Below are positions 290 through 19,481 of a stretch of 64,000 nucleotides of DNA, one piece after another. Both the position numbers and the translations under genes were made by a program. Source of the stretch: Phreatobacter aquaticus (lineage in GTDB: Bacteria > Pseudomonadota > Alphaproteobacteria > Rhizobiales > Phreatobacteraceae); NCBI RefSeq assembly GCF_005160265.1, contig NZ_CP039865.1, forward strand, positions 4,426,828 through 4,490,827. Direction: 5' to 3'. The notes under the pieces are model-generated. The model was not told the origin of the DNA. It made no database searches and saw nothing but the letters and a program-made list of their open reading frames with translations. Each line of letters starts with the position of its first letter. Within the stretch, counting starts at the first letter, position 1.

Positions 290-306
290 CCGGCAAGAAT
301 TGCCGG
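290..306. promoter_or_regulatory. Flagellar palindrome CCGGCA-N5-TGCCGG, candidate FlbD (ftr) enhancer site
   Basis: Perfect inverted repeat CCGGCAAGAATTGCCGG. It is centred about 96 bp upstream of the sigma-54 element in front of flgF. The same palindrome with the same five-base spacer occurs at 5198-5218, 12039-12055 and 19463-19481. Its CCGGC core resembles the ftr elements bound by the enhancer-binding protein FlbD in Caulobacter. Confidence 0.6.
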
Positions 307-392
307 GGTGGCTCGGCAAAACCCGCCCCAAAGCAGGACTGGCGTTAGGACCTTGCAATCGTAACCCCTTGAAATTGCTCACACCGACACGT

Positions 393-407
393 TGGCATGG
401 TTGATGC
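393..407 (+). promoter_or_regulatory. Sigma-54 promoter of the flgFGAH operon
   Basis: TGGCATG-GTTG-ATGC fits the sigma-54 consensus TGGCACG-N4-TTGC with two mismatches, and the invariant GG and GC are exactly spaced. Transcription would begin near 419, giving a leader of roughly 115 bases to flgF at 535. The rest of the 212-534 gap holds the palindrome and CtrA-type box listed separately and no gene. Confidence 0.6.
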
Positions 408-534
408 CAAGTGAAGGTTGGTCCTGAGGCCGTTTGGGAGAACGGGTTTGGGGCCGATGCTGGGGAGCACCCGGTGACCTGATCGCCTTGGGAGAGGCAG
501 GAAGGGTTTGCCGGACACAATTGGGGTCGGTCCG

Positions 535-1284
535 ATGGAGAATATCGCTCTCGTCGGTCTTTCGCGGCAGGTCGCCCTGCGGCGGGAGCTGGACGTTATC
601 GCGAACAACATGGCGAACTTGAACACCACGGGGTTCAAGGCGGACGATGTTGTGTTCCAGGAATATCTCATGCCCGGCGCCCGGGATGAGACCTTTCCGC
701 GCGGCTCCGACCGCAACCTGTCCTTCGTCTGGGACCGCGCCACCACCACCAACATGAGCCAGGGCTCGGTCGAGCAGACCGGCAACACCCTCGACACCGC
801 CATTGGCGGCCGCGGCTTCTTCGTGGTGCAGACGCCCGAGGGCGAGCGCTACACCCGCAACGGCTCCTTCGAAATCAACGCCCAGGGCCAGATGGTCACC
901 AAGCAGGGCCATCCGGTCCTCAGCGAATCCGGTGTCATCAATTTCGAGCCGACCGATACCCCGCCAGTGATCGCCCGCGATGGCCAGATCTCGGTGGCCG
1001 CCGGCCAGCGCGGCAAGCTGCGGATCGTCGACAACCCGGCCAACCGCGCCTTCGAGAAGGTCGGCGACAATCTCTACCGGCTGACCGAGGGCAACCAGGC
1101 AACGCCGGTCCCGATCACGGATGTCCGCCAAGGCTATATCGAGAAGTCCAACGTCTCCCCCGTCAACACCCTGTCCCGGATGATCGAGGTGACCCGCGCC
1201 TACGCGGAACTCGCCTCCAGCCTGGACCGTCACGATCAAATGCGCCGCGAAGCAATTCGCTCGCTCGGCAATCCGGCGACCTGA
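535..1284 (+). CDS. flgF: Flagellar basal-body rod protein FlgF
   Basis: Proximal rod subunit of the flagellum, exported through the flagellar type III system. The N-terminus MENIALVGLSRQ..LDVIANNMANLNTTGFK carries the rod/hook signature (ANN-ANxNTxGF). The C-terminus (GYIEKSNVSPVNTLSRMIEV, then RAYAELASS) is the matching conserved helix, so the 249 residues are full length. The ATG at 535 gives the family's usual N-terminus. A TTG at 508 with GGAAGG just upstream would add nine residues and cannot be excluded. It is the first gene of flgF-flgG-flgA-flgH, with 12 bases to flgG. Confidence 0.95.
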   Translation: MENIALVGLSRQVALRRELDVIANNMANLNTTGFKADDVVFQEYLMPGARDETFPRGSDRNLSFVWDRATTTNMSQGSVEQTGNTLDTAIGGRGFFVVQTPEGERYTRNGSFEINAQGQMVTKQGHPVLSESGVINFEPTDTPPVIARDGQISVAAGQRGKLRIVDNPANRAFEKVGDNLYRLTEGNQATPVPITDVRQGYIEKSNVSPVNTLSRMIEVTRAYAELASSLDRHDQMRREAIRSLGNPAT

Positions 1285-1296
1285 GGAATCTGACCC

Positions 1297-2085
1297 ATGC
1301 GCGCTCTGCACACAGCCGCCACCGGCATGAAGGCCCAGGAGCTGACCGTCGAAGTCATCTCCAACAACATCGCCAACATGCGGACCACCGGATTCAAGCG
1401 CGTGCGCGCCGAATTCCAGGATCTGCTCTACGACAACCAGCGCCGCGCCGGCACCCAGAACTCGCAGCAGGGCAACATCCTGCCGGTCGGCATCGCGATC
1501 GGTACCGGCGTCAAGGCTGCCGCCACCTCGCGCATCATGAGCCAGGGCAACGTGACGGCCACCGAGAAGGACTATGACATCGCCATTCGCGGCGAGGGCT
1601 TCTTCCGCATCCAGATGCCCGACGGCCGCACCGCCTATACCCGCGACGGCTCGTTCGAGCTGAACGACCAGGGCCAGCTCGTGACGGTCGACGGCTATCT
1701 CGTCGATCCCGGCATCACCATCCCCAACAACGCCACCTCGGTCACCATCAGCCAGGCCGGCATCGTCCAGGTCACCCTGCCCGGCCAGACCGCCACCCAG
1801 ACCGTCGGCACGCTGCAGCTCTCGCGCTTCGTCAACAAGGCCGGCCTGGAATCGATCGGCGACAACCTGTTCGTCGAGACGCCCGCCTCCGGCCAGCCGA
1901 CCACCGGCGTGCCGGCAGCGCTCGGCATGGGCACGCTGCTCCAGAAGAATCTCGAACAGTCGAACGTCACGGCGGTGAGCGAAATCTCCGACATGATCGC
2001 GGCCCAGCGTGCCTACGAGATGAATGCCCGCATCATCTCCGCCGCCGACCAGATGCTGCAGTCCACTTCGCAGATCATGAAGTGA
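1297..2085 (+). CDS. flgG: Flagellar basal-body rod protein FlgG
   Basis: Distal rod protein, 262 residues, the usual FlgG length. It begins MRALHTAATGMKAQELTVEV with the SNNIANMRTTGFKR rod signature. The FlgG/FlgF central fold follows (YTRDGSFELNDQGQLVTVDG), and it ends with the conserved QRAYEMNARIISAADQMLQS helix. The distal rod connects the proximal rod to the hook and is bushed by the L and P rings made from flgH and flgI in this window. The stop codon overlaps the flgA start (TGATG), indicating translational coupling. Confidence 0.97.
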   Translation: MRALHTAATGMKAQELTVEVISNNIANMRTTGFKRVRAEFQDLLYDNQRRAGTQNSQQGNILPVGIAIGTGVKAAATSRIMSQGNVTATEKDYDIAIRGEGFFRIQMPDGRTAYTRDGSFELNDQGQLVTVDGYLVDPGITIPNNATSVTISQAGIVQVTLPGQTATQTVGTLQLSRFVNKAGLESIGDNLFVETPASGQPTTGVPAALGMGTLLQKNLEQSNVTAVSEISDMIAAQRAYEMNARIISAADQMLQSTSQIMK

Positions 2086-3122
2086 TGGCCGCCATGATCC
2101 TCACATGCCGCAGATGGATGGGAACGGCCGCGCTGGTGCTGCAATGCGCCCTCGCCTGGCCAGCCCTTGCCCAGCAGGCCACGCTGAAAGCCGAGGTCAC
2201 GGTGAGCGAGGACATCGTCAGGCTCGGCGATCTCGTCGACAATGCCGGCCGCTTCGCCGCCTCGCCGGTGTTCCGCGCCCCCGATCTCGGCCATACGGGG
2301 CAGCTCGCCTCCTGGCGGGTGCTGGAAGCTGCCAAGCGCCTCGGCCTGAACGGCATTGCCACCGGCGATGTCTCCGAGGTGGCCGTCACCCGGGCGGCCC
2401 GCGTCATCCCGCTCGCCGAGCTGGAAGAGCGCATCGCCCAGACCTCGGCCCGCGTGCTCGGGGTCGGTGACGCGACCAAGATCCAGGTGACCTTCGACCG
2501 TGGCACACGCTCCATCGCGGTCGAGCCCGGCGCCTATGGCGACCTGTCGGTCACCCGGTTCGAGCTCGATGCCCGCAACGGCCGGTTCGAGGCAACGCTG
2601 GAGGTTCGCGGTTCCACCCTGTCGCAGCGCTCCGGCGGCTTCCGCCTGTCCGGCCAGGCGGCCGAAACCGTGGAATTCCTGGTGCCGGCCCGCGCCATCA
2701 ACCGGGGCGAGGTGCTCAAGGCCGCCGATCTCGTGATCGAGCGCCGCCCCCGCTTCGAGGTGTCGAGCATGTCGCCAGATGCGCTGTCCACCTTGCCCCA
2801 GGCGGTCGGCCTGGCCGCTCGGCGGCCGCTTGCCCCCGAAAGGCCGTTCCGCAGCGCCGACCTGATGAAGCCGGAGATCGTCGAGCGCAATGCCAACGTC
2901 CTGATCATCTACAATGCGAACGGCCTGACATTGACCATCCGCGGCAAGGCCCTTGAGGCCGGCTCCGAAGGCGATGTCATCCAGGTCCAGAACCTCAATT
3001 CCCGCAAGACCCTCTCGGCAGTGATCACCGGCACCAACCAGGTGACCATGACGGTCCGTCCGGATGTCGGCCCGCAGGCTGCCATCCGTCCCGCGGCCCC
3101 CGCCACGCCCAGCCCGCAATGA
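2085..3122 (+). CDS. flgA: FlgA, P-ring assembly chaperone
   Basis: Periplasmic chaperone for FlgI assembly into the P ring. The first about 28 residues form a signal peptide (CRRWMGTAALVLQCALAWPALAQ). The C-terminal SAF/FlgA domain is visible from about residue 205 (VPARAINRGEVLKAADLVIE), ending in the conserved segment NANVLIIYNANGLTLTIRGK and the LNSRKTLSAVI stretch. The start is the ATG overlapping the flgG stop; a GTG one codon earlier is possible. The reading frame ends at the flgH junction. Confidence 0.93.
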   Translation: MAAMILTCRRWMGTAALVLQCALAWPALAQQATLKAEVTVSEDIVRLGDLVDNAGRFAASPVFRAPDLGHTGQLASWRVLEAAKRLGLNGIATGDVSEVAVTRAARVIPLAELEERIAQTSARVLGVGDATKIQVTFDRGTRSIAVEPGAYGDLSVTRFELDARNGRFEATLEVRGSTLSQRSGGFRLSGQAAETVEFLVPARAINRGEVLKAADLVIERRPRFEVSSMSPDALSTLPQAVGLAARRPLAPERPFRSADLMKPEIVERNANVLIIYNANGLTLTIRGKALEAGSEGDVIQVQNLNSRKTLSAVITGTNQVTMTVRPDVGPQAAIRPAAPATPSPQ

Positions 3123-3145
3123 TGTCGTCCGCGTCAGGAAAAGCC

Positions 3146-3883
3146 ATGCGTTTCGCCCGTCCCGCCCTTGTGATGGCCGCAGCCCTCACCACCGCCGCCT
3201 GCGGCGCGCCCGACCGGCTGCGCAATATCGGCCAGACACCGGCCCTCTCGGCGATCAACAATCCCCACACCCAGACGGGCTACCGTCCGGTCTCGATGCC
3301 GATGCCGGATCCGGTTCCGGTATCCCACAATCCGAACTCCCTGTGGCGTAACGGCTCGCGGGCCTTCTTCCGCGACCAGCGTGCCCAGCGGGTCGGCGAC
3401 ATCCTGACCATCAAGGTGAAGATCACCGACCAGGCCAATGTCTCCAACGAGACCGACCGCTCCCGCTCCAGCGCCGAGAATATGGGTGCCACCAACCTGT
3501 TCGGCCTGGAGAACTTCATCGGCCGCGCCACCGGCGCGCCTCCGGGCAGCCTCGTCAATCTGAACGGCTCCTCCTCCAGCAATGGCAAGGGCACGGTCCA
3601 GCGCTCGGAATCGCTGGCCACCAATGTCGCCGCCGTCGTCACCCAGATCCTGCCCAACGGCAATCTCGTGCTGGAGGGCAAGCAGGAAGTGCGCGTCAAT
3701 GCCGAGGTGCGCGAACTGATCGTCGCCGGCATCGTCCGCCCCGAGGACATCGAGAGCGACAACACCATCGATTCCGCCAAGATCGCCCAGGCCCGCATCG
3801 GCTATGGCGGACGCGGCCAGATCACCGATGTCCAGCAGCCGCGCTACGGCCAGCAGGTCCTCGACGTTCTCCTGCCCTGGTAA
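3146..3883 (+). CDS. flgH: FlgH, flagellar L-ring lipoprotein
   Basis: Outer-membrane L-ring protein. The ATG at 3146 has a good ribosome site (AGGAAA) and gives a lipoprotein signal MRFARPALVMAAALTTAAC with the cysteine at residue 19. Two upstream ATGs at 3119 and 3122 lack a comparable site. Family landmarks are SLWRNGSRAFFRDQRAQRVGDI, the ANVSNETDRSRSS stretch and NGNLVLEGKQEVRVNAEVR. At 245 residues it is full length. It is the last gene of the flgFGAH operon, followed by a strong terminator. Confidence 0.95.
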   Translation: MRFARPALVMAAALTTAACGAPDRLRNIGQTPALSAINNPHTQTGYRPVSMPMPDPVPVSHNPNSLWRNGSRAFFRDQRAQRVGDILTIKVKITDQANVSNETDRSRSSAENMGATNLFGLENFIGRATGAPPGSLVNLNGSSSSNGKGTVQRSESLATNVAAVVTQILPNGNLVLEGKQEVRVNAEVRELIVAGIVRPEDIESDNTIDSAKIAQARIGYGGRGQITDVQQPRYGQQVLDVLLPW

Positions 3884-3955
3884 AGGCTTCCCCGCCCCCA
3901 AGCATTTCCCCGCTCCTCAAGCCGTCCCCGCTCCCCAGGCGATACGGCCAAACCG

Positions 3956-3990
3956 ACACCGCCCGTGCTCCCACACGGGCGGTGTTCGTT
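3956..3990 (+). terminator. Rho-independent terminator after flgH
   Basis: A perfect 12-bp stem (ACACCGCCCGTG / CACGGGCGGTGT) with a six-base loop, followed by TCGTTTG, ends the flgFGAH operon. Confidence 0.8.
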
Positions 3991-4002
3991 TGTCGGGCGC
4001 CC

Positions 4003-4034
4003 AAACGAAAACGGCCGCCCCGAAGGACGGCCGT
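4003..4034 (-). terminator. Rho-independent terminator after dksA
   Basis: Read on the reverse strand: a 10-pair stem (ACGGCCGTCC / GGGCGGCCGT, one G-U) closed by a TTCG tetraloop and followed by TTTTCGTTT. It faces the flgH terminator. Confidence 0.8.
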
Positions 4035-4065
4035 CTGTCTTGGGTTGGAACGGTCGCGGCCGGCT

Positions 4066-4482
4066 CTACTCGTCGCGATAGACCCGCTCGCGGCGCTCAT
4101 GGCGCTCCTGGGCTTCCAGCGACAGGGTGGCGATCGGCCGGGCTTCGAGACGCTTGAGCGAGATCGGTTCGCCGGTCTCCTCGCAGAAGCCGTAGGTGCC
4201 GTCGTCGATGCGCCCCAGCGCTGCGTCGATTTTGGAGATCAGCTTGCGCTGACGGTCACGGGCCCTCAGTTCGATGGCCCGGTCGGTTTCCGACGACGCG
4301 CGGTCCGCGATGTCGGGATGGTTCACGTTCTCATCCTGCAGGTTCTGCAGGGTCTCCTTGGCTTCCTTCAGAATGTCGTCCTTCCAGGACAACAGCTTCT
4401 TCCGGAAATATTCGCGCTGCCGTTCGTTCATGAACGGTTCCGAGTCGACCGGACGGTAATCCGCTTCTAACGCCAACGTCAT
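4066..4482 (-). CDS. dksA: DksA-family RNA polymerase-binding regulator
   Basis: 138 residues: N-terminal coiled-coil from about residue 20 (MNERQREYFRKKLLSWKDDI), the DksA coiled-coil tip DRASSETDRAIELR, and the C-terminal zinc-finger-like fold YGFCEETGEPISLKRLEARP. Only one of the four zinc cysteines of E. coli DksA remains; the others are replaced (T, L, A positions). This zinc-free form is common in Hyphomicrobiales. DksA binds the RNA polymerase secondary channel and works with ppGpp. GAGGGG stands eight bases before the ATG. It lies on the opposite strand between two flagellar operons. Confidence 0.92.
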   Translation of the reverse strand: MTLALEADYRPVDSEPFMNERQREYFRKKLLSWKDDILKEAKETLQNLQDENVNHPDIADRASSETDRAIELRARDRQRKLISKIDAALGRIDDGTYGFCEETGEPISLKRLEARPIATLSLEAQERHERRERVYRDE

Positions 4483-4657
4483 ACAACGAACCCCTCATTG
4501 AATCGCGCCGTTAAGGCACGTTTCGCGGCGCTCATAGCACCGGGCTTGTAGACAGACAACCGGTAAACCAGTCGCCAAACTGTCACGTTTGGGGACAGTC
4601 CGGTCAGGCCTTAGCAGGAACCATGCCGAAATGGCGGAAATCCGCCAGAACGCTGCG

Positions 4658-5107
4658 TCAGGTCGCGAGCCGGGCAGCTTCGCGTGCCTCGCGTTTGGCG
4701 ATCTCGACCTGGGCCCTGAGATCAATTTCGGCAAGCACGCCGTCGAGGCCGTCGTCGCCGGAGGCCTCGGGCTTCATCGCGGTCAGCCCGCGCAGCTTGA
4801 GGAGCACGGCAGGAACCGGCTCGCCGCTGAGCAGGGCCACCTTCAGGTCCTCGAGCATGTCGAGTGAATCGGTACCGCGCTTGAGGGCCCGGCGGCGACG
4901 CTCGCGCCGGTCCTCCGGAACCATGCCCTGCACCGCCAGCAGCGTCTCGAGGCCGGCGGGCGCCACCATCGGCCGGGCGCCATCCGCCTTGCGCGGTTCT
5001 TCCGCCGGGCGGCCGGGCAATTGGAAGGCCTGGCGAGACCCATCGGTCTTCGCCACCGGTTGCGAAGTCTGGACTGCGCCGACAGGCGGCGTGGTCGTGA
5101 TCCGCAT
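4658..5107 (-). CDS. fliX: FliX, flagellar assembly regulator
   Basis: 149 residues beginning MRITTTPPVG, as FliX proteins do. The C-terminal half carries the conserved helical stretch DMLEDLKVALLSGEP and LLKLRGLTA, with a final AEIDLRAQVEIAKRE helix. In Caulobacter FliX couples basal-body assembly to FlbD, the activator of sigma-54 flagellar promoters. The ATG at 5107 has GGAGGGGG upstream; a longer frame to 5149 has no such site. It is divergent from flgI, the same order as in Caulobacter, and preceded by a perfect CtrA-type box. Confidence 0.93.
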   Translation of the reverse strand: MRITTTPPVGAVQTSQPVAKTDGSRQAFQLPGRPAEEPRKADGARPMVAPAGLETLLAVQGMVPEDRRERRRRALKRGTDSLDMLEDLKVALLSGEPVPAVLLKLRGLTAMKPEASGDDGLDGVLAEIDLRAQVEIAKREAREAARLAT

Positions 5108-5181
5108 GGTCCCCCTCCGACACGCCCCGTTGAGAAAGGGGCAAGACATCTTGCTGCAACCTTAAGAAAGACCCAACCCGG

Positions 5182-5196
5182 TTAAGAGCCCGTTAA
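5182..5196. promoter_or_regulatory. CtrA box between fliX and flgI
   Basis: TTAA-GAGCCCG-TTAA is an exact match to the CtrA consensus TTAA-N7-TTAA. It is 75-89 bp upstream of fliX and next to the flagellar palindrome, so it probably drives fliX as an early gene. Confidence 0.65.
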
Positions 5197-5197
5197 T

Positions 5198-5218
5198 GCC
5201 CGGCAAAAGCTGCCGGGC
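5198..5218. promoter_or_regulatory. Flagellar palindrome, best copy; candidate FlbD (ftr) site
   Basis: Perfect 8-bp arms GCCCGGCA and TGCCGGGC around the spacer AAAGC. It is centred 92 bp upstream of the GG of the flgI sigma-54 promoter and about 100 bp upstream of fliX, so it could serve both directions. Confidence 0.65.
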
Positions 5219-5298
5219 GGCAGAACGGGCCCATCGCGACGGCGGCGTGACGACCAGCGAAACTGTTTTGTTTCAATATGTTAGGCAATGGGTGGGGA

Positions 5299-5313
5299 TG
5301 GCACGATCCGTGC
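5299..5313 (+). promoter_or_regulatory. Sigma-54 promoter of the flgI operon
   Basis: TGGCACG-ATCC-GTGC matches TGGCACG-N4-TTGC at all but one base. Transcription would start near 5325, which rules out the ATG at 5298 and supports the flgI start at 5346. Confidence 0.8.
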
Positions 5314-5345
5314 GACACACTGCCTGTCATGTCTGGGGCCAATCC

Positions 5346-6446
5346 ATGCTGCGCCGAATCCTTGCTCTTCTGATGGTTGTCGCGACGGTTGTTCCGGCGC
5401 AGGCGAACACGTCCAGGATCAAGGACCTGATCGACGTCGAGGGCATCCGTGACAACCAGCTGATCGGCTACGGCCTGGTGGTCGGCCTCAACGGCACCGG
5501 CGACACGCTGAACAACTCGCCCTTCACCCGCCAGTCCATCCAGTCGATGATGGAGCGGTTGGGCGTCAACACCCGCGGCATGAACCTGCGCACCGCCAAT
5601 GTCGCAGCCGTCATGGTCACCGCCAATCTGCCGCCCTTCTCCACACAGGGCACCCGCATCGACGTCAAGGTCTCGGCCATGGGCGACGCCCGGTCGCTGC
5701 AGGGCGGCGAATTGCTGGTGACGCCGCTGGTCGGCGCCGACGGCGAGGTCTACGCGGTCGGCCAAGGCGCGGTGGCGATCGCCGGCTTCCAGGCGGAAGG
5801 CGCCGCGGCCCGCATCACCCGCGGCGTTCCAACCGTCGGCCGCGTGTCCAACGGTGGCATCGTCGAGCGCGAAGTGAACTTCGCCATCAACCGCATGGCG
5901 TCGATCCGGCTGGCGCTGCGCAATCCCGATCTCACCACCGCCCGGCGGATCGCCTCCGCGATCAATGATTTCATCGGTGCGCCGACCGCCGAGCCGACCG
6001 ATCCCGGCACCGTCAACCTGAAAGTGCCGGCGCGCTACGAGGGCAATATCGTGGCGCTGCTGACCGAGATCGAGCAGCTGCGCGTCCAGCCCGATTCCGC
6101 CGCCAAGGTGATCATCGACGAGGCCTCCGGCATCATCGTCATGGGCAAGGACGTCCGCGTGTCGACGGTCGCCGTCGCCCAGGGCAATCTGACCGTCACC
6201 ATTTCCGAGCGGCCCCAGGTCAGCCAGCCGAATGCGCTGGCCGGCGGCCGCACCGTCGTAACGCCGAACACCAGCATATCCACCACCGAGGACGGCAAGC
6301 GCTTTGCCCTGGTGCGCGAGGGCGTGTCGCTGCAGGAACTGGTCGACGGACTGAACGCGCTGGGTATCGGCCCCCGCGACCTCATCGCCATCCTGCAGGC
6401 GATCAAGGCCGCCGGTGCCCTCCAGGCCGAAATCGAGGTGCTCTGA
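5346..6446 (+). CDS. flgI: FlgI, flagellar P-ring protein
   Basis: Periplasmic P-ring subunit, 366 residues, full length. The signal peptide is MLRRILALLMVVATVVPAQA, directly followed by the family hallmark TSRIKDLIDVEGIRDNQLIG and YGLVVGLNGTGD. The end (FALVREGVSLQELVDGLNAL, then PRDLIAILQAIKAAGALQAE) is also typical. An in-frame ATG at 5298 lies inside the sigma-54 promoter and is rejected. The stop overlaps the flgJ start (TGATG). Confidence 0.96.
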   Translation: MLRRILALLMVVATVVPAQANTSRIKDLIDVEGIRDNQLIGYGLVVGLNGTGDTLNNSPFTRQSIQSMMERLGVNTRGMNLRTANVAAVMVTANLPPFSTQGTRIDVKVSAMGDARSLQGGELLVTPLVGADGEVYAVGQGAVAIAGFQAEGAAARITRGVPTVGRVSNGGIVEREVNFAINRMASIRLALRNPDLTTARRIASAINDFIGAPTAEPTDPGTVNLKVPARYEGNIVALLTEIEQLRVQPDSAAKVIIDEASGIIVMGKDVRVSTVAVAQGNLTVTISERPQVSQPNALAGGRTVVTPNTSISTTEDGKRFALVREGVSLQELVDGLNALGIGPRDLIAILQAIKAAGALQAEIEVL

Positions 6447-8185: not shown

Positions 8186-9370
8186 ATGTCTGACATCACC
8201 ATTTCGCGTGGCGTGCGCTCGAACCTTCTCACCCTGCAGAACATCTCGTCGCAGCGTGAGACGATCCAGGGCCGCCTGGCTTCCGGCAAGAAGGTCAACT
8301 CGGCCCTCGACAATCCGAGCAACTTCTTCACCGCCTCGTCACTGAACAACCGCGCGAACGACTTGACCGGCCTTCTGGACGGCATGTCGAACGGCATCCA
8401 GACGCTCCAGGCTGCCGACAAGGGCATCCAGGCGCTGACCTCGCTGGTCAACTCCGCTCAGGCGAAGATCCGTGAAGGTCTGCAGAGCGCCTCGACCCAG
8501 GCGACCAACTCGGCTGCCACTGCCAGCGCCGGCACCCTGTCGGACAAGGTTGAAGCCGATCGTGGCTTCGGCTCGGGCACCAAGGTCACTCTGGGCATCA
8601 ACGGCACCAACTTCGACATCACGCTTGGCGCCTCGGACACGGTCCAGACCACCATCAACAAGATGAACCAGGTTCTGGGCTCCAACGGCGCGGTCACCGT
8701 CGACTCCGGCGGCAAGGTCAACGTCCGTAACAACACCTCGTCTGCCCTCACCATCGGCGTGACCGACGGCGGCGGCGGCACCAAGACCCTCGACGACCTG
8801 CTCGGCGGCACCACTGTCGGCTCGACCACCGCGATCGCTTCGACCGCTGCGGCCGGCACGACGGCCAACTACGACAGCTATGCCAAGCAGTACAACGACC
8901 TGCTCGACCAGGTCGACGGCATCGTCAAGGACACCAGCTTCAACGGCAAGAACCTGCTCAACGGCGACAGCCTCGACGTCATCTTCAACGAGAAGTCGAC
9001 GGGTGCCAACAAGCTGGCGATCTCGGGCGTGACCCTCAGCGCAACGGGCCTCGGCCTGTCGACGCTGGCGACCACTGGCTCGACCGCCTCTGACCTGACC
9101 GGCAAGCTGACCAACCTGCAGGATGCACTGACTTCGCTGCGCCAGCAGTCGTCGAAGTTCGGTTCCAACCTGTCGGTCGTTCAGACCCGCCAGGACTTCA
9201 CCAAGCAGATGTCGAACGTCCTGAAGACCGGCGCCGACAACCTGACGCTCGCCGACTCCAACGAGGAAGGCGCCAACCTGCTCGCGCTCAACACCCGCGC
9301 TCAGCTGGCCACCTCCGCCCTGTCCTTCGCCTCGCAGGGCGACCAGCAGGTTCTGCAGTTCCTCCGCTGA
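8186..9370 (+). CDS. Flagellin 1
   Basis: 394 residues. The N-terminal D0/D1 region (MSDITISRGVRSNLLTLQNI, SGKKVNSALDNPSNFFTA) and C-terminal D1/D0 region (KFGSNLSVVQTRQDFTKQMS, ADSNEEGANLLALNTR) are intact. The middle carries a flagellin-IN type module (GTKVTLGINGTNFDITLGAS) and a DGGGGTKTLDDLLGG stretch. It ends in the usual FLR. It is nearly a duplicate of flagellin 2, 247 bases downstream, including leader and terminator, so the pair arose by tandem duplication. The main filament is probably built from this pair. Confidence 0.97.
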   Translation: MSDITISRGVRSNLLTLQNISSQRETIQGRLASGKKVNSALDNPSNFFTASSLNNRANDLTGLLDGMSNGIQTLQAADKGIQALTSLVNSAQAKIREGLQSASTQATNSAATASAGTLSDKVEADRGFGSGTKVTLGINGTNFDITLGASDTVQTTINKMNQVLGSNGAVTVDSGGKVNVRNNTSSALTIGVTDGGGGTKTLDDLLGGTTVGSTTAIASTAAAGTTANYDSYAKQYNDLLDQVDGIVKDTSFNGKNLLNGDSLDVIFNEKSTGANKLAISGVTLSATGLGLSTLATTGSTASDLTGKLTNLQDALTSLRQQSSKFGSNLSVVQTRQDFTKQMSNVLKTGADNLTLADSNEEGANLLALNTRAQLATSALSFASQGDQQVLQFLR

Positions 9371-9617: not shown

Positions 9618-10802
9618 ATGTCTGACATCACGATCTCGCGTGGCGTTCGCTCGAACCTTCTCACGCTGCAGAACATTTCGTCGAGCCGCGAAACGATCCA
9701 GAGCCGCCTGGCTTCCGGCAAGAAGGTCAACTCGGCCCTCGACAATCCCACCAACTTCTTCACCGCCTCGTCGCTCAACAACCGTGCGAACGACCTGACC
9801 TCGCTGCTCGACGGCATGTCGAACGGCATCCAGACGCTGCAGGCGGCTGACAAGGGCCTTTCCGCACTCACCTCGCTGGTCAACTCCGCTCAGGCAAAGA
9901 TCCGTGAAGGTCTGCAGAGCGCCTCCACCCAGCCCACCAGCTCGGTTGGCACTGCCAGCGCCGGCACCCTGTCGGACAAGGTTGAGGCCGATCGTGGCTT
10001 CGGCTCGGGCACCAAGGTCACCCTTGGGATCAACGGCACCAACTTCGACATCAATCTCGGCGCAACCGACACCGTCCAGACCACCATCAACAAGATGAAC
10101 CAGGTCCTGGGCTCCAACGGTGCCATCACCGTCGACTCCAGCGGCAAGATCAACGTCCGCAACAACACCTCGGCGGCTCTCACCATCGGCGTGACCGATG
10201 GCGGCGGCGGCACCAAGACCCTCGACGACCTGCTCGGTGGCACCACGGTCGGCTCGACCACCGCAATCGCTTCGACCGCTGCGGCTGGTTCAGCGGCGAA
10301 CTATGACAACTACGCCCGCCAGTACAACGATCTGCTCGATCAGATCGACGGCATCGTCAAGGACACCGGCTTCAACGGCAAGAACCTGCTCAACGGCGAC
10401 GGCCTCGACGTCGTCTTCAACGAGCAGTCGGTCAACCCGAACAAGCTGTCGATCTCGGGCGTGACCTTCAACGCAGCCGGCCTCGGCCTGTCGGATCTTG
10501 CCACCACCGGCACGACCTCTTCGGACCTCACCGGCAAGCTGACCAACCTGCAGGATGCGCTGACCACACTGCGCGATCAGTCCTCCAAGTTCGGTTCCAA
10601 CCTGTCGGTCGTCCAGACCCGCCAGGACTTCACCAAGCAGATGTCGAACGTCCTGAAGACCGGCGCCGACAACCTGACCCTGGCTGACTCGAATGAGGAA
10701 GGCGCCAACCTGCTCGCCCTCAACACGCGCGCCTCGCTCGCCACCTCCGCCCTGTCGTTCGCCTCGCAGGCCGACCAGCAGGTCCTCCAGTTCCTCCGCT
10801 AA
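9618..10802 (+). CDS. Flagellin 2
   Basis: 394 residues, the same length as flagellin 1 and collinear with it. The terminal polymerisation domains are almost identical. Differences cluster in the centre, for example TSSVG for TNSAA near residue 106 and NPNKLSISGVTFNAAG for GANKLAISGVTLSATG near residue 270. It is preceded by the conserved two-hairpin leader and followed by its own terminator, so it forms a single-gene transcript. Confidence 0.97.
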   Translation: MSDITISRGVRSNLLTLQNISSSRETIQSRLASGKKVNSALDNPTNFFTASSLNNRANDLTSLLDGMSNGIQTLQAADKGLSALTSLVNSAQAKIREGLQSASTQPTSSVGTASAGTLSDKVEADRGFGSGTKVTLGINGTNFDINLGATDTVQTTINKMNQVLGSNGAITVDSSGKINVRNNTSAALTIGVTDGGGGTKTLDDLLGGTTVGSTTAIASTAAAGSAANYDNYARQYNDLLDQIDGIVKDTGFNGKNLLNGDGLDVVFNEQSVNPNKLSISGVTFNAAGLGLSDLATTGTTSSDLTGKLTNLQDALTTLRDQSSKFGSNLSVVQTRQDFTKQMSNVLKTGADNLTLADSNEEGANLLALNTRASLATSALSFASQADQQVLQFLR

Positions 10803-10997: not shown

Positions 10998-12029
10998 ATG
11001 CGTTTGCGTCACTGCCTTGCTCTCTTGTTGCCGCTCTGCCTGATGGCGGGTCCAGCCTCCGCGCAGGACAGCGATCAGATCTACGCGATCATCCACCAGG
11101 ATGCGGCCGCCCGGGCCGCCCGGCAGGCGGCGCGCCAGACAGTCCAGCCCGCCCAGCGCCTGCCACAACAGCACCGGCTGGCCGCGGCTCCGCAGCAGAT
11201 GCGCGGCGCAACGCCCCATTTTTCTTCCCTGTTCTCACGCCCGGTCGCACTGCCGGTGGGATTGCCGATGATCACCATCCGCCCCCCGGTGGATGGCATG
11301 CCCGGCCTCGACGGCCAGCCGGGCCAGGTGGCGCCGCAACCCGCCCTGCCCCAGCAGACCGCGCCGCGATCGGTCCGCCCGACCGCACCGTCGGCGCCGC
11401 AACATGGCGGCGCGACCGCCTATTGCGTCAGGTCCTGTGACGGATACTATTTTCCGGTTGGCCCGGCTCAATCCGGCGGCAGCCGGCAGGCGCAGGACAT
11501 GACCTGCAACGCGCTCTGCCCGGGCGCCGACGTCGCCCTCTACCGCACGCACAATGGCGGAACGATCGAGACCGCAGCCGGCCCGCGCGGCCAGGTCTAT
11601 CAGTCCCTGCGCAATGCCTTCCGGTTTCGCGAGAAATTCGACGCCACCTGCACCTGTTCGGGCCTCGGTGCGACCGGGCTCGGCCGGGTGGCCATCACCA
11701 ATGACTTCACCCTGCGCTCCGGCGACATCGTGGTGACCGAGCGCGGCGTGCGGATCTTCGCCGGCGCAAGCCGCTTCCCCTATCGGCCGTCCGATTTCGT
11801 CGCCGCCCGCGCCTACAGCCGCCTGCCGGCCGACGTCCATCACCGCATCGCCATGATCGAGGCCGGCATCCAGGCCCAGGAAAACACGTCAAGCGCTCCG
11901 GCGGCCAGGCTTGCCACCGGACGGCGGCGCGCCGGCATGCCGGTTGTCGATGCCCAGGCGCAAAACGTGGCCCAACCGAGCTTCGTCGCCAACAATGCCG
12001 GGCCCCGCGTCATCCAGATCACGCGCTAG
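10998..12029 (+). CDS. Secreted DUF2865-family protein
   Basis: 343 residues with a clear Sec signal (MRLRHCLALLLPLCLMAGPASA). A Gln/Pro-rich spacer runs to about residue 135. The cysteine-rich DUF2865 domain follows, recognisable by TAYCVRSCDGYYFPV, then MTCNALCPGADVALY and a CTCSG motif. The family is found in Hyphomicrobiales and has no assigned biochemical role. The even number of cysteines suggests periplasmic disulphides. It is wedged between flagellins 2 and 3 on the same strand, and whether it has a flagellar role is unknown. Confidence 0.8.
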   Translation: MRLRHCLALLLPLCLMAGPASAQDSDQIYAIIHQDAAARAARQAARQTVQPAQRLPQQHRLAAAPQQMRGATPHFSSLFSRPVALPVGLPMITIRPPVDGMPGLDGQPGQVAPQPALPQQTAPRSVRPTAPSAPQHGGATAYCVRSCDGYYFPVGPAQSGGSRQAQDMTCNALCPGADVALYRTHNGGTIETAAGPRGQVYQSLRNAFRFREKFDATCTCSGLGATGLGRVAITNDFTLRSGDIVVTERGVRIFAGASRFPYRPSDFVAARAYSRLPADVHHRIAMIEAGIQAQENTSSAPAARLATGRRRAGMPVVDAQAQNVAQPSFVANNAGPRVIQITR

Positions 12030-12038
12030 AATCGGCAC

Positions 12039-12055
12039 CCGGCAATTCCTGCCGG
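12039..12055. promoter_or_regulatory. Flagellar palindrome upstream of flagellin 3
   Basis: CCGGCA-ATTCC-TGCCGG, ten bases after the DUF2865 stop and about 180 bp before flagellin 3. Unlike the other three copies it has no well-spaced sigma-54 element downstream. A CtrA-like TTAA-N7-TTAG lies at 12139-12153. Confidence 0.5.
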
Positions 12056-12225
12056 TTAACTTCTGCCGCGTCGACGAGCCCACAGGGACCTCCCCTAAGC
12101 TCTTCAAAAAAAAGCCATTATCGACATCGGGAATGAAATTAACGATCTGTTAGGGTTAACACGCCAGATTGACGTTATAGACGAGGCGGGCCAAGAATCG
12201 GCGCGACTCGTATGGGGGTCAACTG

Positions 12226-13446
12226 ATGAGCGATATTGTTCTCTCGAAAGGCATCCGCGGTAACCTGCTGTCGCTGCAGGGCACGGCGGACCTGCGTGAC
12301 CGCACGCAGAACCGCTTGTCGACCGGCAAGAAGGTCAATACCGCGCTCGACAATCCCGGGAACTATTTCTCGGCGCAGCAGCTTTCCTCACGCGCCTCCG
12401 ATATCACCAACCTGCTCGATGGTATCGGCAACGCGGTCCAGACCCTCAAGGCCGCCGACACCGGCATCACCTCGATCATCAAGGTGGTGCAGAACATGCA
12501 GGCCCTCGCCCGCCAGGCACAGGGCGACGCAGCGACCACGGCCCGTCTCGCCGGCACGCTGCCGACCATCGGCGGCGCCGCGAGCGCGCTGACCACCCAG
12601 ACCGATCTGACGACGCTCGGCTATACCGCCGGCGAGACCATCACGGTGGCCACCGGCGCGGGCCGCGACACGACCCTGACGATTGCCTCCGGCATGACGG
12701 TCGGCGATTTGATGAACGCCATCAACGACAACACCGGTTCCGCCGCCGCAGCTGGTTCGGGCGTGACAATCGGCGGCACAGCGGGCGCCGACGCCAAGGC
12801 ATCGCTCACCCCTGACGGGCGCCTGATCATCGAGTCCGTCGGCACCCAGCCGATCGACATCACCTCGTCGAATGCGGGGACTGCGCTTGCCGATACCGGC
12901 TTCTCCGGCACCAATCTGTCGAAGCCGGCCGGAACGATCAACTCGGTCCGCCTCAGCATTTCCAAGCAGTTCTCGGAACTGCGTCGCCAGATCGACCAGC
13001 TTTCGAGGGATGCCGGTTACAACGGCGTCAATCTGCTGAACGGCGACACGCTGCAGGCCATGTTCAACGAGAAGCAGACCGCGTCGCTGACGATCTCCGG
13101 CGCCAAGTTCCAGTGCGACGAGGACCTGGGCGTCCCCGACCAGACCAACTCCTTCCAGACCGACCAGGATCTGGGCGTCGCCCTGAACAACCTGACATCG
13201 GCCATGACCAAGCTGAGGGCCCAGTCCGGTGCGTTTGGCTCCAATCTCGCGCTGGTGCAGATCCGCCAGAACTTCACCAAGGAAATGGCCAACACGCTGG
13301 AAACCGGCTCGAACAACCTGACGATCGCCGACATGAACGAGGAAGGTGCCAACATGCTGGCCCTGCAGACCCGTCAGTCGCTTTCAACCCAGGCTCTGTC
13401 CTTGGCCAACGAGGCCGACCAGGGCGTGCTGAGCCTCTTCCGCTAG
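12226..13446 (+). CDS. Flagellin 3, divergent paralogue
   Basis: 406 residues. It keeps the flagellin ends (MSDIVLSKGIRGNLLSLQGT, ADMNEEGANMLALQTRQ, final SLFR) but the centre differs fully from flagellins 1 and 2. Near residues 290-315 it has a short internal duplication (DEDLGV and DQDLGV around PDQTNSFQT) and one cysteine, rare in flagellins. Its leader lacks the two conserved hairpins. It may be a minor or positional filament subunit. Confidence 0.95.
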   Translation: MSDIVLSKGIRGNLLSLQGTADLRDRTQNRLSTGKKVNTALDNPGNYFSAQQLSSRASDITNLLDGIGNAVQTLKAADTGITSIIKVVQNMQALARQAQGDAATTARLAGTLPTIGGAASALTTQTDLTTLGYTAGETITVATGAGRDTTLTIASGMTVGDLMNAINDNTGSAAAAGSGVTIGGTAGADAKASLTPDGRLIIESVGTQPIDITSSNAGTALADTGFSGTNLSKPAGTINSVRLSISKQFSELRRQIDQLSRDAGYNGVNLLNGDTLQAMFNEKQTASLTISGAKFQCDEDLGVPDQTNSFQTDQDLGVALNNLTSAMTKLRAQSGAFGSNLALVQIRQNFTKEMANTLETGSNNLTIADMNEEGANMLALQTRQSLSTQALSLANEADQGVLSLFR

Positions 13447-14323: not shown

Positions 14324-14368
14324 GCGCCGCGCCGCGCTGAAAACCACAAGCACCATTCCGGAACGATG

Positions 14369-14391: not shown

Positions 14392-14415
14392 ATCAATCTG
14401 CGCGAGTGTCTTGGC

Positions 14416-15990: not shown

Positions 15991-16002
15991 GATCCAGCGG
16001 CC

Positions 16003-17898
16003 TCACATCTGCCTGAGCATATCGAACATCTCCTTGACCACCGACATGACGCGCGCATTGGCGCCATAGGCGTTCTGGAGAGCGATGAGGGTAGCCATCT
16101 CATCATCGACATTGACGGCCGACGCCGCATCCGCGCGCGCCTGCAACTGGGTCACCACGGCAGCCTGGCCGGCAGCGAGCGTCTTTGCGGTCGCGGCATC
16201 GTTGCTGAGGGTCGAGACTGTGGTGCGGGTATAGGAGAGGATCGAGCCCTGGTAAGGCGAACTCGTCGTGCCGATCTTGCCGGCCGGCAGGAAGTAGCGG
16301 CTGGTATCGTTCAGAGCCGAGGCGAGGAAGTTCGGCCGGGTGGCATCCCCATCGAGCGTGGTGGAGTCCATCTTCACGAGCTTGGTCGGATCGGCCGACA
16401 GGCTCGCATTCACCGCGATGCGCGAGGCAAGTCCGGTCACCTGCGAGCTGGATGCCGTCACCTTGCCGGTGAACAGGCCCGCCACCGCGGTGGAATCGAC
16501 GAAGAACGGCAGGGCCGCCGTACCATCGGCCAGGCTCTGCGCCGTGGTGTTGGCGCTGGCAGCATTGACCTTCGCGCCGCCGGTCGCTGCCGGATCGGCC
16601 AGGACTTCGAGGCCCGAACCGGACGCCGTGATCGAGAAGGCGCCGGCCGGCGCGCCGACGCTTGACGCCCAGGCATCGACCGCCGCCTGGATATCGCTCG
16701 CATAGCCGGCGGCCGACGTGCCGGTAAGCCGGAACACCTTGTCGTTCGGATCCGCCGTCATGGCGTCCGACATGGTGACGCCGGCGTCATCCACGCGCTT
16801 GAACGTGAACTTCTGTGTCACGCCATTGGCGGTCAGCGACATGGTGATCGCATTGCCGTCGGCAAGGCCGGTGCCAAGCGACGTGTCGAAACCGGTATTC
16901 GGCCCGGCGCCGCCGAGGGACACGGCCGTCGACTGGCTGGACGTGCCGAAGGCTTCAGCAAGCCCGGCGGCGACCTGGTCGAGTTCGGCCTGGGCTGCCG
17001 GCAGCGATGCGTCGCGCAGCTCGATGAGGGCTGCGATCTTGCCGGTCTTGAACACGCCCGCGGCAATCAGGTCGACATTGCCGCCGGCCGTATGGGCCAT
17101 CACGGTGCCGACGGTGCGCTCGTTGGGATCGGTCGAGAACACGCTGCCGGCATTGATCTGCTGGCGCCCGTCGAAGGTGAGCGTCGGCGCGTTCTGCGAC
17201 AGCAGGGTGAAGCCGCCGCCGGCATAGAGTTGCACGGCATCGTTCTTGTCGTAGGTCGCCGTGACGCCGACATATTCGCTGATCGTGTTGACCAGCGCAT
17301 CGCGCTGGTCGAGCAGCGCAACGCGCGTGCCGTCATCCTCGCCGGCGGCCTGAAGCTTCTGGTTCACCTGAGCCAGCTGACCGAGCGCGTCGTTCAGCGT
17401 CTGCGTCGCCTGGCCGAGCTGGTCCTCGGCCGACTGCCGCAGGCTCTGGACCGATGTGGACAGGGTGTTCAGCGACTGCGCCAGCACAGTACCGGCACTG
17501 ATCACGCCGGCGCGCGCCGATTCATTGTCCGGCGAGGTCCGGAGCGTCTGCAGCGAGGACGAGAACTTGTTGACCACCGTATCGAGCGCGTTGGCCGAGC
17601 CCGGCGCGCCCATCAGCTGGTCGATCATGGTCAGGAAGTCGGCGCGGGTGGAGGCGTAGGCGCTGTTGCTCTTCTCGGTGATCAGCTGGCGCGAGACGAA
17701 CATGTCGTATTCGCGCGTGACGGACGCGACCTGAACGCCCGCGCTCTGCCCTCCGACGACGACGGCGCCGGCGGTGATCGTCTTCTTGGCATAGTCCGGG
17801 TTGCTGGCATTGGCGACGTTCGAGCTGGTGAGGCTCGTCGCCACCGAAGTGAATCGCAGGCCCGAAAGGGCATTGCCGAGCGCGCTCGATAGGCTCAT
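16003..17898 (-). CDS. flgK: FlgK, hook-associated protein 1
   Basis: 631 residues. The N-terminal hook signature is MSLSSALGNALSGLRFTSVA followed by SNVANASNPDYAKKTI. The usual VDQLMGxPGSANALD-type region follows near residue 95, and the conserved C-terminus is TLIALQNAYGANARVMSVVK with MFDMLRQM. It forms the first junction ring above the hook. It is 53 bases after flgE and 12 before flgL, so one operon. Confidence 0.95.
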   Translation of the reverse strand: MSLSSALGNALSGLRFTSVATSLTSSNVANASNPDYAKKTITAGAVVVGGQSAGVQVASVTREYDMFVSRQLITEKSNSAYASTRADFLTMIDQLMGAPGSANALDTVVNKFSSSLQTLRTSPDNESARAGVISAGTVLAQSLNTLSTSVQSLRQSAEDQLGQATQTLNDALGQLAQVNQKLQAAGEDDGTRVALLDQRDALVNTISEYVGVTATYDKNDAVQLYAGGGFTLLSQNAPTLTFDGRQQINAGSVFSTDPNERTVGTVMAHTAGGNVDLIAAGVFKTGKIAALIELRDASLPAAQAELDQVAAGLAEAFGTSSQSTAVSLGGAGPNTGFDTSLGTGLADGNAITMSLTANGVTQKFTFKRVDDAGVTMSDAMTADPNDKVFRLTGTSAAGYASDIQAAVDAWASSVGAPAGAFSITASGSGLEVLADPAATGGAKVNAASANTTAQSLADGTAALPFFVDSTAVAGLFTGKVTASSSQVTGLASRIAVNASLSADPTKLVKMDSTTLDGDATRPNFLASALNDTSRYFLPAGKIGTTSSPYQGSILSYTRTTVSTLSNDAATAKTLAAGQAAVVTQLQARADAASAVNVDDEMATLIALQNAYGANARVMSVVKEMFDMLRQM

Positions 17899-17951
17899 CG
17901 TCGATCACTCCTTGACGCGGTACAAACCGGGGGCAGCGTTCACGCCGCCGC

Positions 17952-19295
17952 TCAGCGGATCATGTTGATGGTTTCCTGCAGCATCGAATTGGCCGTGGTG
18001 ACGATGCGGGTGTTGGCCGCATAGGCCTGCTGGGTCACGATCATCTTGGTGAACTCGTCGGAAATGTCGACGTTGGACGCCTCCACCGAGCCGCCGACGA
18101 TCTTGCCCGAGCCGCCGATCAGCGGCGTGCCGGACTCGCCGGTCTCTGCGAAAGCGCCGCCGTCGAGCCGCTTCAGGCCGTCGTCATTGGCAAAATTGGC
18201 CAGCGCCACCTGATAGAGATCGACCGACTGACCGTTCGAATAGGTCGCGCGCAGGCGGCCCGTATCGGTCACGGAAATGCCCTTGAGCGTGCCGGCCGAA
18301 TAGCCGTTCGGCGTGTTTTCGGTGACGGTTGCCGTACCGTCGGCGCGGGCGGTCTGGCTGAGGCCGCCCGAGCCGAGATCAAGCTCGACATCGCCGACCG
18401 TCACGCCGTTGACGTTGAGGCCGGTGATCGTCGGGTTCGCCGTCGGAGACGTCAGCTTTCCTGCGCCGTCGAAGGTGAAATTGCCGCCGATGCGGGTCCA
18501 GGTCTCGGCACCCGTGGTCGAATTGGACTGGTAGTAGAGGCTCCAGGTATCAGTGCCGCCCGAGGTCGTGCTGTCGGTCTTGGCCCAGCGCATCTGGACG
18601 TTTACCTCACGGCCCTGAGCGTCGTAATTGGTCACGGAGCCGCCGGAAATCGACGTCTTGACGAAGGTCGCCGCATCAGCTGTCGGGATCGTCGCCTGGC
18701 CGATCAGGGCCGAATCCATCAGTTCCGACCCGGCCGTCGTGGTTGCGCTGGCGGTTGCCGGTGTGGTCGGAAGGCTGGCGTGATAGCTGATGCGGGTCGT
18801 CGCGCTCGCCGGCACGACATCGCTCGACAGGCGGACCGGGCTCGGGGTCGAACCGACCGGATTGCCGGTGCTGCGGTCGAGCGGCAGGCCCTCCAGATAA
18901 TAGCCGGAGCCGTTGACCAGATAGCCCTGCGCATTGGGCGCGAAGTCGCCGCGGCGGGTGTAATAATTGATGCCGGACAGGACCGGCTCGCCATCGGTCG
19001 AACCGGTCTGCTGCTTGACGATGAAATAGCCCTCACCCGAGATCGCCATATTGGTCGAGAGCCCGGTCGACTGCAGCTGCCCCTGGATCGTGTTGGTGGT
19101 GCGCGAGTAGGAATTGACCGAGCCGGCGACCTGCCGGTTGAGGCTGTTGTCCGGAATGAGGTCGACGAAACTCGTCTCGACCCGCTTGAACCCGGTGGTC
19201 TGCGAGTTGGCAATGTTGCCGGAGATGTTCTCCAGCGCATAGGACTGCGCCGACAGGCCGCTGACCGCCGTGGTCAATGCACCGAAAATACCCAT
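17952..19295 (-). CDS. flgE: FlgE, flagellar hook protein
   Basis: 447 residues from the ATG at 19295. N-terminus MGIFGALTTAVSGLSAQSYA and NISGNIANSQTTGFKRVETS; C-terminus EASNVDISDEFTKMIVTQQA, then YAANTRIVTTANSML, all typical of FlgE. A frame extension to 19376 would run through the sigma-54 promoter and is rejected. It is the first gene of the hook operon flgE-flgK-flgL. Confidence 0.96.
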   Translation of the reverse strand: MGIFGALTTAVSGLSAQSYALENISGNIANSQTTGFKRVETSFVDLIPDNSLNRQVAGSVNSYSRTTNTIQGQLQSTGLSTNMAISGEGYFIVKQQTGSTDGEPVLSGINYYTRRGDFAPNAQGYLVNGSGYYLEGLPLDRSTGNPVGSTPSPVRLSSDVVPASATTRISYHASLPTTPATASATTTAGSELMDSALIGQATIPTADAATFVKTSISGGSVTNYDAQGREVNVQMRWAKTDSTTSGGTDTWSLYYQSNSTTGAETWTRIGGNFTFDGAGKLTSPTANPTITGLNVNGVTVGDVELDLGSGGLSQTARADGTATVTENTPNGYSAGTLKGISVTDTGRLRATYSNGQSVDLYQVALANFANDDGLKRLDGGAFAETGESGTPLIGGSGKIVGGSVEASNVDISDEFTKMIVTQQAYAANTRIVTTANSMLQETINMIR

Positions 19296-19367
19296 GACGA
19301 ACCTCAACAAACCAGGGTTAGGACAGCTTGCGACACCATCAGCGACGCCTTGCTCGGTCTGGGTATT

Positions 19368-19382
19368 GCAGTCCATATGCCA
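19368..19382 (-). promoter_or_regulatory. Sigma-54 promoter of the flgE operon
   Basis: On the reverse strand TGGCATA-TGGA-CTGC followed by A fits TGGCACG-N4-TTGCA, with correct GG/GC spacing. The transcript would begin near 19356, a leader of about 60 bases. Confidence 0.7.
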
Positions 19383-19462
19383 AAATTGGTGCGCCTGATT
19401 TCAAGCACTTAGCCGTTCAATGGGGTTGGGCCGTCATCCTGTCCGGCAGTTTCGACCGGTCT

Positions 19463-19481
19463 CCCGGCAATTTGTGCCGGG
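19463..19481. promoter_or_regulatory. Flagellar palindrome upstream of flgE, candidate FlbD (ftr) site
   Basis: CCCGGCA-ATTTG-TGCCGGG, perfect 7-bp arms. It is centred 91-92 bp upstream of the flgE sigma-54 GG, the same distance as at flgI. Confidence 0.6.

Follow-up and report, generated by a model that had tools for sequence, protein, structure and literature searches.

The inverted repeat CCGGCA-N5-TGCCGG that precedes several flagellar operons of Phreatobacter aquaticus is very probably the binding site of the flagellar regulator FlbD (the ftr element), acting from ~80-90 bp upstream on sigma-54 flagellar promoters, as judged by sequence comparison. The sites, the promoter elements, the regulator genes, the conservation of the sites, their helical phasing and their genome-wide targets are all observed here; from them we infer FlbD binding, looping, activation and timing. 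From its site ~80-90 bp upstream, FlbD would loop to the sigma-54 RNA polymerase at flgF, flgI, flgE and fliK-flgD, opening class III promoters after the early basal body is built, with FliX, which is encoded between two of the promoters that FlbD would serve, reporting assembly. The distance between site and promoter would evolve mainly by whole helical turns because FlbD would have to meet the polymerase from the correct side of the DNA.

Four exact copies of the palindrome are found in the window, that is, the whole 64,000-nt stretch analysed (Table 1). The initial annotation had described a motif of three operons, and its copies at flgF, flgI and flgE stand, but the fourth, upstream of the flagellin gene, was overlooked. 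The motif had also been thought worth describing as the form of this lineage, yet it is already known: the Caulobacter FlbD site is given as CCCGGCAxxxxxTGCCGGG in the relevant part of a published account (PMC3333781), and each of the four copies matches it at 12/12 inner letters, a score that excludes the outermost C/G pair. With up to two mismatches allowed, the window holds 22 matches against 12.0 +- 3.5 in shuffled sequences, none of 100 shuffles reaching at least 22.

Table 1. Predicted regulatory sites and associated genes in the window
Feature	Coordinates	Strand	Remarks
CtrA-like box TTAACGACCCGTTTA (7/8), between fliM side and flgF	262..276		29 bp centre to centre from palindrome
FlbD (ftr) palindrome CCGGCAAGAATTGCCGG, flgF promoter	290..306		predicted site; 11 or 12/12 letters in 10/10 genus members
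sigma-54 element of flgF, TGGCATGGTTGATGC	393..407	+	
flgF (ATG start likely at 535)	508..1284	+	
fliX, divergent from flgI	4658..5149	-	PF10768, 107.2 bits
Perfect CtrA-like box TTAAGAGCCCGTTAA	5182..5196		19 bp centre to centre from fliX/flgI palindrome
FlbD (ftr) palindrome CCGGCAAAAGCTGCCGG, between fliX and flgI	5200..5216		predicted site; 12/12 letters in 10/10 genus members
sigma-54 element of flgI, TGGCACGATCCGTGC	5299..5313	+	
flgI (ATG likely at 5346)	5346..6446	+	
Fourth exact palindrome CCGGCAATTCCTGCCGG, 5' of flagellin	12039..12055		12/12 letters in 10/10 genus members
CtrA-like box TTAACGATCTGTTAG (7/8)	12139..12153		99 bp from flagellin palindrome
Flagellin gene, 3' of fourth palindrome	12226..13446	+	PF00669/PF00700
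flgE (ATG likely at 19295)	17952..19295	-	
sigma-54 element of flgE, TGGCATATGGACTGC	19368..19382	-	
Degenerate second palindrome (10/12), flgE side	19443..19459		21 bp closer to sigma-54 element
FlbD (ftr) palindrome, flgE promoter	19464..19480		predicted site; gap 82 to sigma-54

Across the whole genome there are nine exact copies, against four for a control motif read backwards. Six of the nine lie at flagellar operons (flgF, flgI, flgE, flagellin, flgB/fliO and the unlinked fliK-flgD), and five are concentrated in a 37 kb flagellar stretch (binomial ~3e-9), while the remaining three fall within other long ORFs which, judged by eye, have no flagellar likeness. The sixth flagellar copy (C1:476754) lies 5' of fliK-flgD, at a gap of 83 from a sigma-54 element, and came to light through the genome-wide scan that the initial annotation had proposed.

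As had been claimed, the palindromes of flgF, flgI and flgE stand 91-97 bp before the GG of a sigma-54 element (96.5, 92.5 and 91.5 bp from the palindrome centre, respectively). If the gap is instead taken to run from the last base of CGGCA-N5-TGCCG up to the T of TGG, it is 87, 83 and 82, in the same order. A -24/-12 element follows the palindrome at these three operons and at fliK-flgD, an arrangement in agreement with the proposal that they are candidate enhancer sites of sigma-54 flagellar promoters. No sigma-54 element scoring at least 8 was found 20-150 bp downstream of the flagellin palindrome on the flagellin strand, nor one at the scanned spacing from the flgB/fliO palindrome. A scan of the window alone with a loose sigma-54 consensus was uninformative (221 matches, 258 expected).

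The regulators that such promoters would need are present, and in this respect too the earlier suggestion of a fit with FlbD and FliX holds. The genome encodes FlbD (NF050807, 808.7 bits, cut-off 750), FliX (PF10768, 107.2 bits, cut-off 25) and, as a single match, RpoN (PF04552, 223.5 bits); five NCBIfam FliX models also match, each below its own cut-off. FlbD is one of five strong sigma-54 activator matches in the genome, four of the five being named by the family scan, and the palindrome could in principle be used by NtrC or by one of the three others, the presence of FlbD being incidental. It is also the case that FlbD does not predict the site: a strict flgI site occurs in 24 of 47 genomes with FlbD and in three of eight in which FlbD was not detected (Fisher p 0.70). 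Of 80 genomes searched, 57 gave a FlgI match; the 55 compared here include our own and G008 (a fragment) but not G056 and G020 (fragments only). The three exceptions (G066, G048 and G049) have the site and a sigma-54 element, and two of them have fliX; as they are drafts of 80-120 contigs, FlbD may fall in an assembly gap. The link to FlbD consequently rests on motif identity and the literature, not on co-occurrence. Use by another enhancer-binding protein is nevertheless improbable, given the concentration of copies at flagellar operons described above, the difference between the palindrome and the NtrC site (TGCACY-N5-GGTGCA), and the identity of the inner twelve letters with the published FlbD site.

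The initial annotation also argued from one fixed spacing, and this does not survive comparison with relatives, in which the distance moves by about a helical turn; two data sets rule a single fixed spacing out. Within the genus the site is present in 10/10 members at each of the three promoters, with a gap of 83-85 at flgI, 87 (as here) or 89 at flgF, and 82, 93 or 95 at flgE. At the level of the class, around 279 strong sigma-54 sites, 152 sites (9/10 letters) lie upstream at 30-140 bp and only 7 downstream over the same range, while control spacers (N3, N4, N6, N7 and N8) give 5-16 upstream sites and six decoy motifs 0-8. In 117 promoters, divided between two alphaproteobacterial sets, the sites recur at steps of ~11 bp, and the phase agrees between the sets. 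With one site taken per promoter, R was 0.60 for 53 promoters and 0.46 for 64, the phase at T = 11 was 7.57 and 7.54 in the two sets, and none of 5000 jittered sets matched the phasing strength for either. The discovery set served to choose the score limits and the range of 30-140 bp, which were retained for the named set; the latter consists of the best 80 of 591 confirmed relatives with L241, a duplicate of a discovery genome, omitted. A combined-pattern scan of 80 genomes mixed chance matches with flgI promoters and was replaced by gene-anchored scans. Our own gaps are imperfectly phased, 87 being 2.4 bp and 82 being 2.6 bp off the class mean. Taken together, these distances suggest that the palindrome keeps whole-helical-turn spacings to its promoters. 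No report of helically phased FlbD sites was found in a literature search of limited scope.

A role as sigma-54 enhancer, as first claimed, would apply to flgF, flgI and flgE but is incomplete, for the palindrome also occurs at fliF, flgB/fliO and flagellin, near CtrA-like boxes and without a strong sigma-54 element. Such boxes, defined as sequence matches to TTAA-N7-TTAA scored out of 8, suggest that the palindrome often adjoins sites resembling those of the cell-cycle regulator CtrA. Their positions are well conserved, with a 7/8 box at -29 or -30 from the flgF palindrome and an 8/8 box at -19 from that of fliX/flgI, each in 10/10 genus members. At our own fliF, where no sigma-54 score of at least 9 was found, a palindrome CCGGCAATTCTTGCCCA (10/12 letters) lies 24 bp downstream of a CtrA-like box TTAACCTTCTGGTAA. 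The same holds more widely: a strong sigma-54 element is absent from 21/21 fliF loci of the class, and the distances from palindrome to box are few and set. This sample comprises our own genome and 20 of 50 other genomes with FlbD, G052 being counted in both fliF sets (L254 and L374). A relaxed search of our own genome for half-sites with GG-N10-GC was too loose (77 matches, 42 for the backwards control); it nonetheless pointed to the fliF site.

The fliF loci, together with a box distance at flgI that is constant in the genus where the sigma-54 gap varies by 2, could also mean that the palindrome mainly partners CtrA at early promoters, proximity to sigma-54 elements being a by-product of divergent gene order. 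We consider this marginally less probable even than use by another activator, as a far-side box within 100 bp is missing from all 21 flgE loci (six have a near-side box), fliK-flgD has its own sigma-54 element, and both sets of promoters show helical phasing of the distance to sigma-54. That the repeats act as terminators or leader structures, through RNA hairpins, rather than as protein sites is scarcely credible: they are G+C-rich, perfect inverted repeats and the copy at 12039 starts 9 bases past an ORF ending at 12029, but no T-run follows any of the four window copies, three lie upstream of sigma-54 elements and outside expected transcripts, and the N5 spacer is required, other spacers being barely enriched.

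The FlbD site would have two functions. Because its distances to CtrA-like boxes are set at many sites, it is probably both a sigma-54 enhancer and a control element of early genes. More tentatively, and with slightly less than even confidence, we propose a single rigid composite element, common to FlbD and CtrA across much of the Alphaproteobacteria, in which the FlbD site would lie ~19-20 bp upstream or 24 bp downstream of the CtrA box of early operons (fliX, fliF and flgB). The same FlbD site could also act on a divergent sigma-54 promoter, from which its distance would shift by whole turns. Through FliX and FlbD, a finished basal body would then use one DNA element both to turn on the late genes and to turn down the early genes that CtrA drives; the two site positions, which differ by 43 bp (~four turns), would be alternative solutions of one feedback.

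The closest known system is that of Caulobacter crescentus, in which ftr enhancers serve sigma-54 class III/IV promoters and ftr4 lies at fliF, according to the sections available (PMC3930126, PMC3096577). Motif, sigma-54 partner, FlbD, FliX and target operons are common to both, as is an ftr-like site next to a CtrA-like box at fliF; the genus differs, and the sites are traced here over many families. By analogy with the ftr4-type repressor site, the ftr-like site beside the CtrA-like box of our own fliF, which likewise lacks a sigma-54 element, is predicted to have the same role. In a fliX mutant the fliF reporter rises and the fliK reporter falls, a result said there to fit repression of class II and activation of class III by FlbD (PMC3096577). 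The helical-turn steps and set CtrA-box distances seen here do not appear in the available portions of the Caulobacter FlbD/ftr accounts. A flagellar Motif 3 described as 'novel' has been reported from Methylosinus sporium (PMC12403871, in part). The FlbD-like flagellar regulator DVU1063 of Desulfovibrio vulgaris shares the half-sites GGCA/TGCC and flagellar targets, but its spacer is written as 4, not 5, and its target list is wider in the part of the account concerned (PMC3333781).

Helical spacing has a precedent outside flagellar genes, at the Vibrio qrr enhancers, whose activator is LuxO. The principle is already published for these sigma-54 enhancers, at which indels of whole helical repeats are tolerated in nature, as stated in the part of that report available (PMC4740811); in this they resemble what is proposed for the sites described here, but they concern other genes in one genus, with no CtrA element.

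To a motif already known, the present analysis adds geometric rules, drawn from FlbD sites of many families, that can be tested directly: the distance to the sigma-54 promoter would change by whole turns, and that to CtrA-like boxes would take one of a few set values. These rules aid the prediction of FlbD targets from sequence, fliK-flgD having been found by such a scan, and with them a feedback by which flagellar assembly would act on the CtrA programme becomes testable outside Caulobacter.

The palindrome CCGGCA-N5-TGCCGG and the sigma-54 elements that the initial annotation had placed before flgF, flgI and flgE were recovered at their positions when the window was scanned for both, the palindrome centre lying 96.5, 92.5 and 91.5 bp, respectively, from the invariant GG. 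A fourth exact palindrome, which that annotation had missed, stands 5' of a flagellin gene. Genome-wide (4,974,952 bp, one contig, C1) there are 9 exact copies vs 4 of the backwards pattern. Five lie within a 37 kb flagellar stretch, at flgB/fliO (C1:4418182), flgF, flgI, the flagellin gene and flgE, and a sixth, at C1:476754, has the sigma-54 element TGGCCTGGCACTTGCT at a gap of 83 bp (end of CGGCA-N5-TGCCG to the T of TGG), the next genes being fliK (PF02120, 59.5 bits) and then flgD (PF03963, 70.3 bits). The remaining three lie within long ORFs and are about as many as expected by chance; the whole-genome scan that had been proposed as a check was therefore favourable.

Coordinates of promoter features and flagellin genes (window positions unless a locus is named)
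Feature	Coordinates	Observation
Small inverted repeat CGTTTGGGAGAACG in flgF leader	431-444	Identical in 10/10 genus members; one exact copy in window
flgI promoter	5299-5313	-12 part GTGC, not of the TCGC type
Two near-identical flagellin genes	8186-9370, 9618-10802	90% by tblastn
Region of flagellin with fourth palindrome	11990-12230	Conserved TTAAC/GGTTAAC stretches; conserved leader (AGATTCG or AGAATCG)
Fourth exact palindrome	12039-12055	
flgB/fliO intergenic region, 8.6 kb left of window	L023:8100-8260	Perfect TTAA-N7-TTAA; exact palindrome 73 bp off

The FlbD site of Caulobacter crescentus is written CCCGGCAxxxxxTGCCGGG in the available text of PMC3333781, where Wu, Benson and Newton 1995 is the source cited, so that the motif was already known and is not a lineage form in need of description. 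The genome encodes FlbD (NF050807, 808.7 bits, cut-off 750; its receiver domain falls slightly below the Pfam cut-off, 28.3 vs 30.2), a FliX gene divergent from flgI (PF10768, 107.2 bits; with five NCBIfam FliX models it stays below cut-off) and one RpoN. In Caulobacter, according to the sections available of PMC3930126 and PMC3096577, FlbD activates class III genes and represses class II genes, itself being under FliX control. Judged by sequence, the palindromes belong to the FlbD/ftr system, because the motif equals the published site, all three proteins are encoded and these roles are described in Caulobacter. Reading them as FlbD-type enhancers appears correct, the sites being real and well conserved.

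In alignments of the ten genus members (this genome included), palindrome, sigma-54 element and a CtrA-like box (a sequence match to TTAA-N7-TTAA, scored out of 8 letters) form islands amid changed DNA. All ten carry, at flgI, an exact palindrome with a gap of 83-85 and a perfect box 19 bp away; at flgE, a palindrome with 10/10 inner letters and a gap of 82 (3 members), 93 (3) or 95 (4); and at flgF, a palindrome of 11 or 12/12 letters, with a gap of 89 in nine and 87 here, and, 29 or 30 bp away, a box matching in 7 of 8 letters. The flagellin palindrome is likewise exact in all ten, with a box 99-100 bp downstream, and in none of them does the flagellin strand show a sigma-54 element scoring at least 8 at 20-150 bp beyond the palindrome. 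Control of this flagellin may differ, since its strand lacks such an element. The two near-identical flagellin genes have neither a palindrome of 10/12 letters nor a sigma-54 score of 9 upstream. At flgB/fliO the palindrome has 11 or 12/12 letters in all five genomes with flgB in the fetched stretch, the other five showing no flgB match there. A five-genome alignment also reveals another conserved GGCA-N5-TGCC, which lies from the perfect box towards flgB, at 24 bp where measured (G101 and G096), a geometry equal to that at fliF. Within the order, families other than this one have the pair (palindrome 9/10 letters, sigma-54 score at least 7.5) at 10/11 flgE and 7/15 flgI loci. The -12 part of the sigma-54 element looks gene-specific in promoters with a paired palindrome: TCGC is found in 48/67 at flgI (loci L118-L251 and the window) vs 0/32 at flgF.

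A class draw of 96 genomes, one per family, gave FlbD matches of at least 469 bits in 51; below these, the best match scored 375. The window, together with stretches of at most 18 kb around flgI from another 54 genomes (46 with FlbD, 8 without), made up the discovery set; the named set comprised 79 loci from genome_contigs (the best 80 of 591 relatives, minus one duplicate), many from MAGs, and includes Rhodopseudomonas, Bradyrhizobium, Azospirillum, Thalassospira, Maricaulis and Phenylobacterium. A palindrome of 9/10 letters lay 30-140 bp upstream of 53/130 strong sigma-54 sites in the former (71 palindromes, with only 0-2 per 20-bp bin downstream or past 140 bp) and of 64/149 in the latter (81 palindromes; best 80 of 591). 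With both sets together (the named one again the best 80 of 591), N5 is the only strongly enriched spacer, with 152 palindromes upstream vs 7 downstream; N3, N4, N6, N7 and N8 gave 5, 8, 15, 7 and 16 upstream and 3, 6, 10, 9 and 6 downstream, and decoy motifs 0-8. The strict paired site before flgI was missing in 23/47 genomes with FlbD, 18 of which have a sigma-54 score of at least 9 there, and present in 3/8 without detected FlbD (association with FlbD, Fisher p 0.70). Three genomes (G066, G048, G049) have site and element before flgI, yet profile and protein searches found no FlbD in them; fliX was seen in two.

CtrA-like boxes (7/8) accompany many of the palindromes beyond the genus. With the named set taken as the best 80 of 591 relatives, 35 boxes lie 20-40 bp from 151 sigma-54-linked palindromes (about 1.8 expected at 0.30 per kb; N5 and N9 spacers gave 3 and 0, two scrambles 4 and 2); at 12-90 bp, 47/117 promoters have a box on the far side from sigma-54 and 11 have one on the near side, more than half having none in that range. 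Outside the genus, 4/7 paired flgI loci of the order keep the box at 18-20 bp with a sigma-54 gap of 104-108 vs 83-85. At fliF, no sigma-54 score of at least 9 was found in 21 class loci, and 15 of these carry a palindrome of 9/10 letters. Counting palindromes of at least 8 letters and boxes of at least 7, it lies upstream of the box by 19 (7 loci), 20 (3) or 16 bp (1) and downstream by 24 bp in 3 loci, our genome included, with six further single offsets. G052 belongs to a family presumed to be Caulobacteraceae, as the FlgI of G052 is nearest to that of a named Phenylobacterium (71%). In this family a palindrome of 8 or 9/10 letters lies 24 bp downstream of a box (at least 7) in 13/29 fliF loci, G052 included; any palindrome of at least 9 letters occurs in only 5/29 and a sigma-54 score of 9 in 2/29. 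A few fliF loci have both positions, 43 bp apart. The downstream position would be a fitting one for a repressor site like Caulobacter ftr4, so named in the available part of the review PMC3930126.

The initial annotation had assumed one spacing for all operons; across the class, distances instead fall in clusters about 11 bp apart, near 51-53, 61-65, 71-76, 83-88, 94-97 and 103-109 over the two sets (the named one the best 80 of 591). When each promoter contributes a single palindrome, the period that fits best is 11.4 in the discovery set (n=53, R 0.60) and 10.9 in the named set (n=64, R 0.46; best 80 of 591), with phases at a fixed 11 bp of 7.57 and 7.54, and jittering the distances by up to 16 bp, repeated 5000 times, never gave a value as high as the observed one in either set. 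Genomes that are related do not count as independent, although the discovery set holds one genome per family. None of the four gaps of our genome (87, 83, 82, 83) departs from the class phase by more than 2.6 bp, and the flgE gap within the genus is 82 or 93-95, with no intermediate values. Such whole-turn changes in distance between enhancer and promoter resemble those of the Vibrio qrr genes, whose sigma-54 enhancers tolerate whole-turn indels according to the text available of PMC4740811. Since that tolerance is already published, the phasing of FlbD sites is a second natural case and not a new principle; what goes beyond the known motif here is its geometry.
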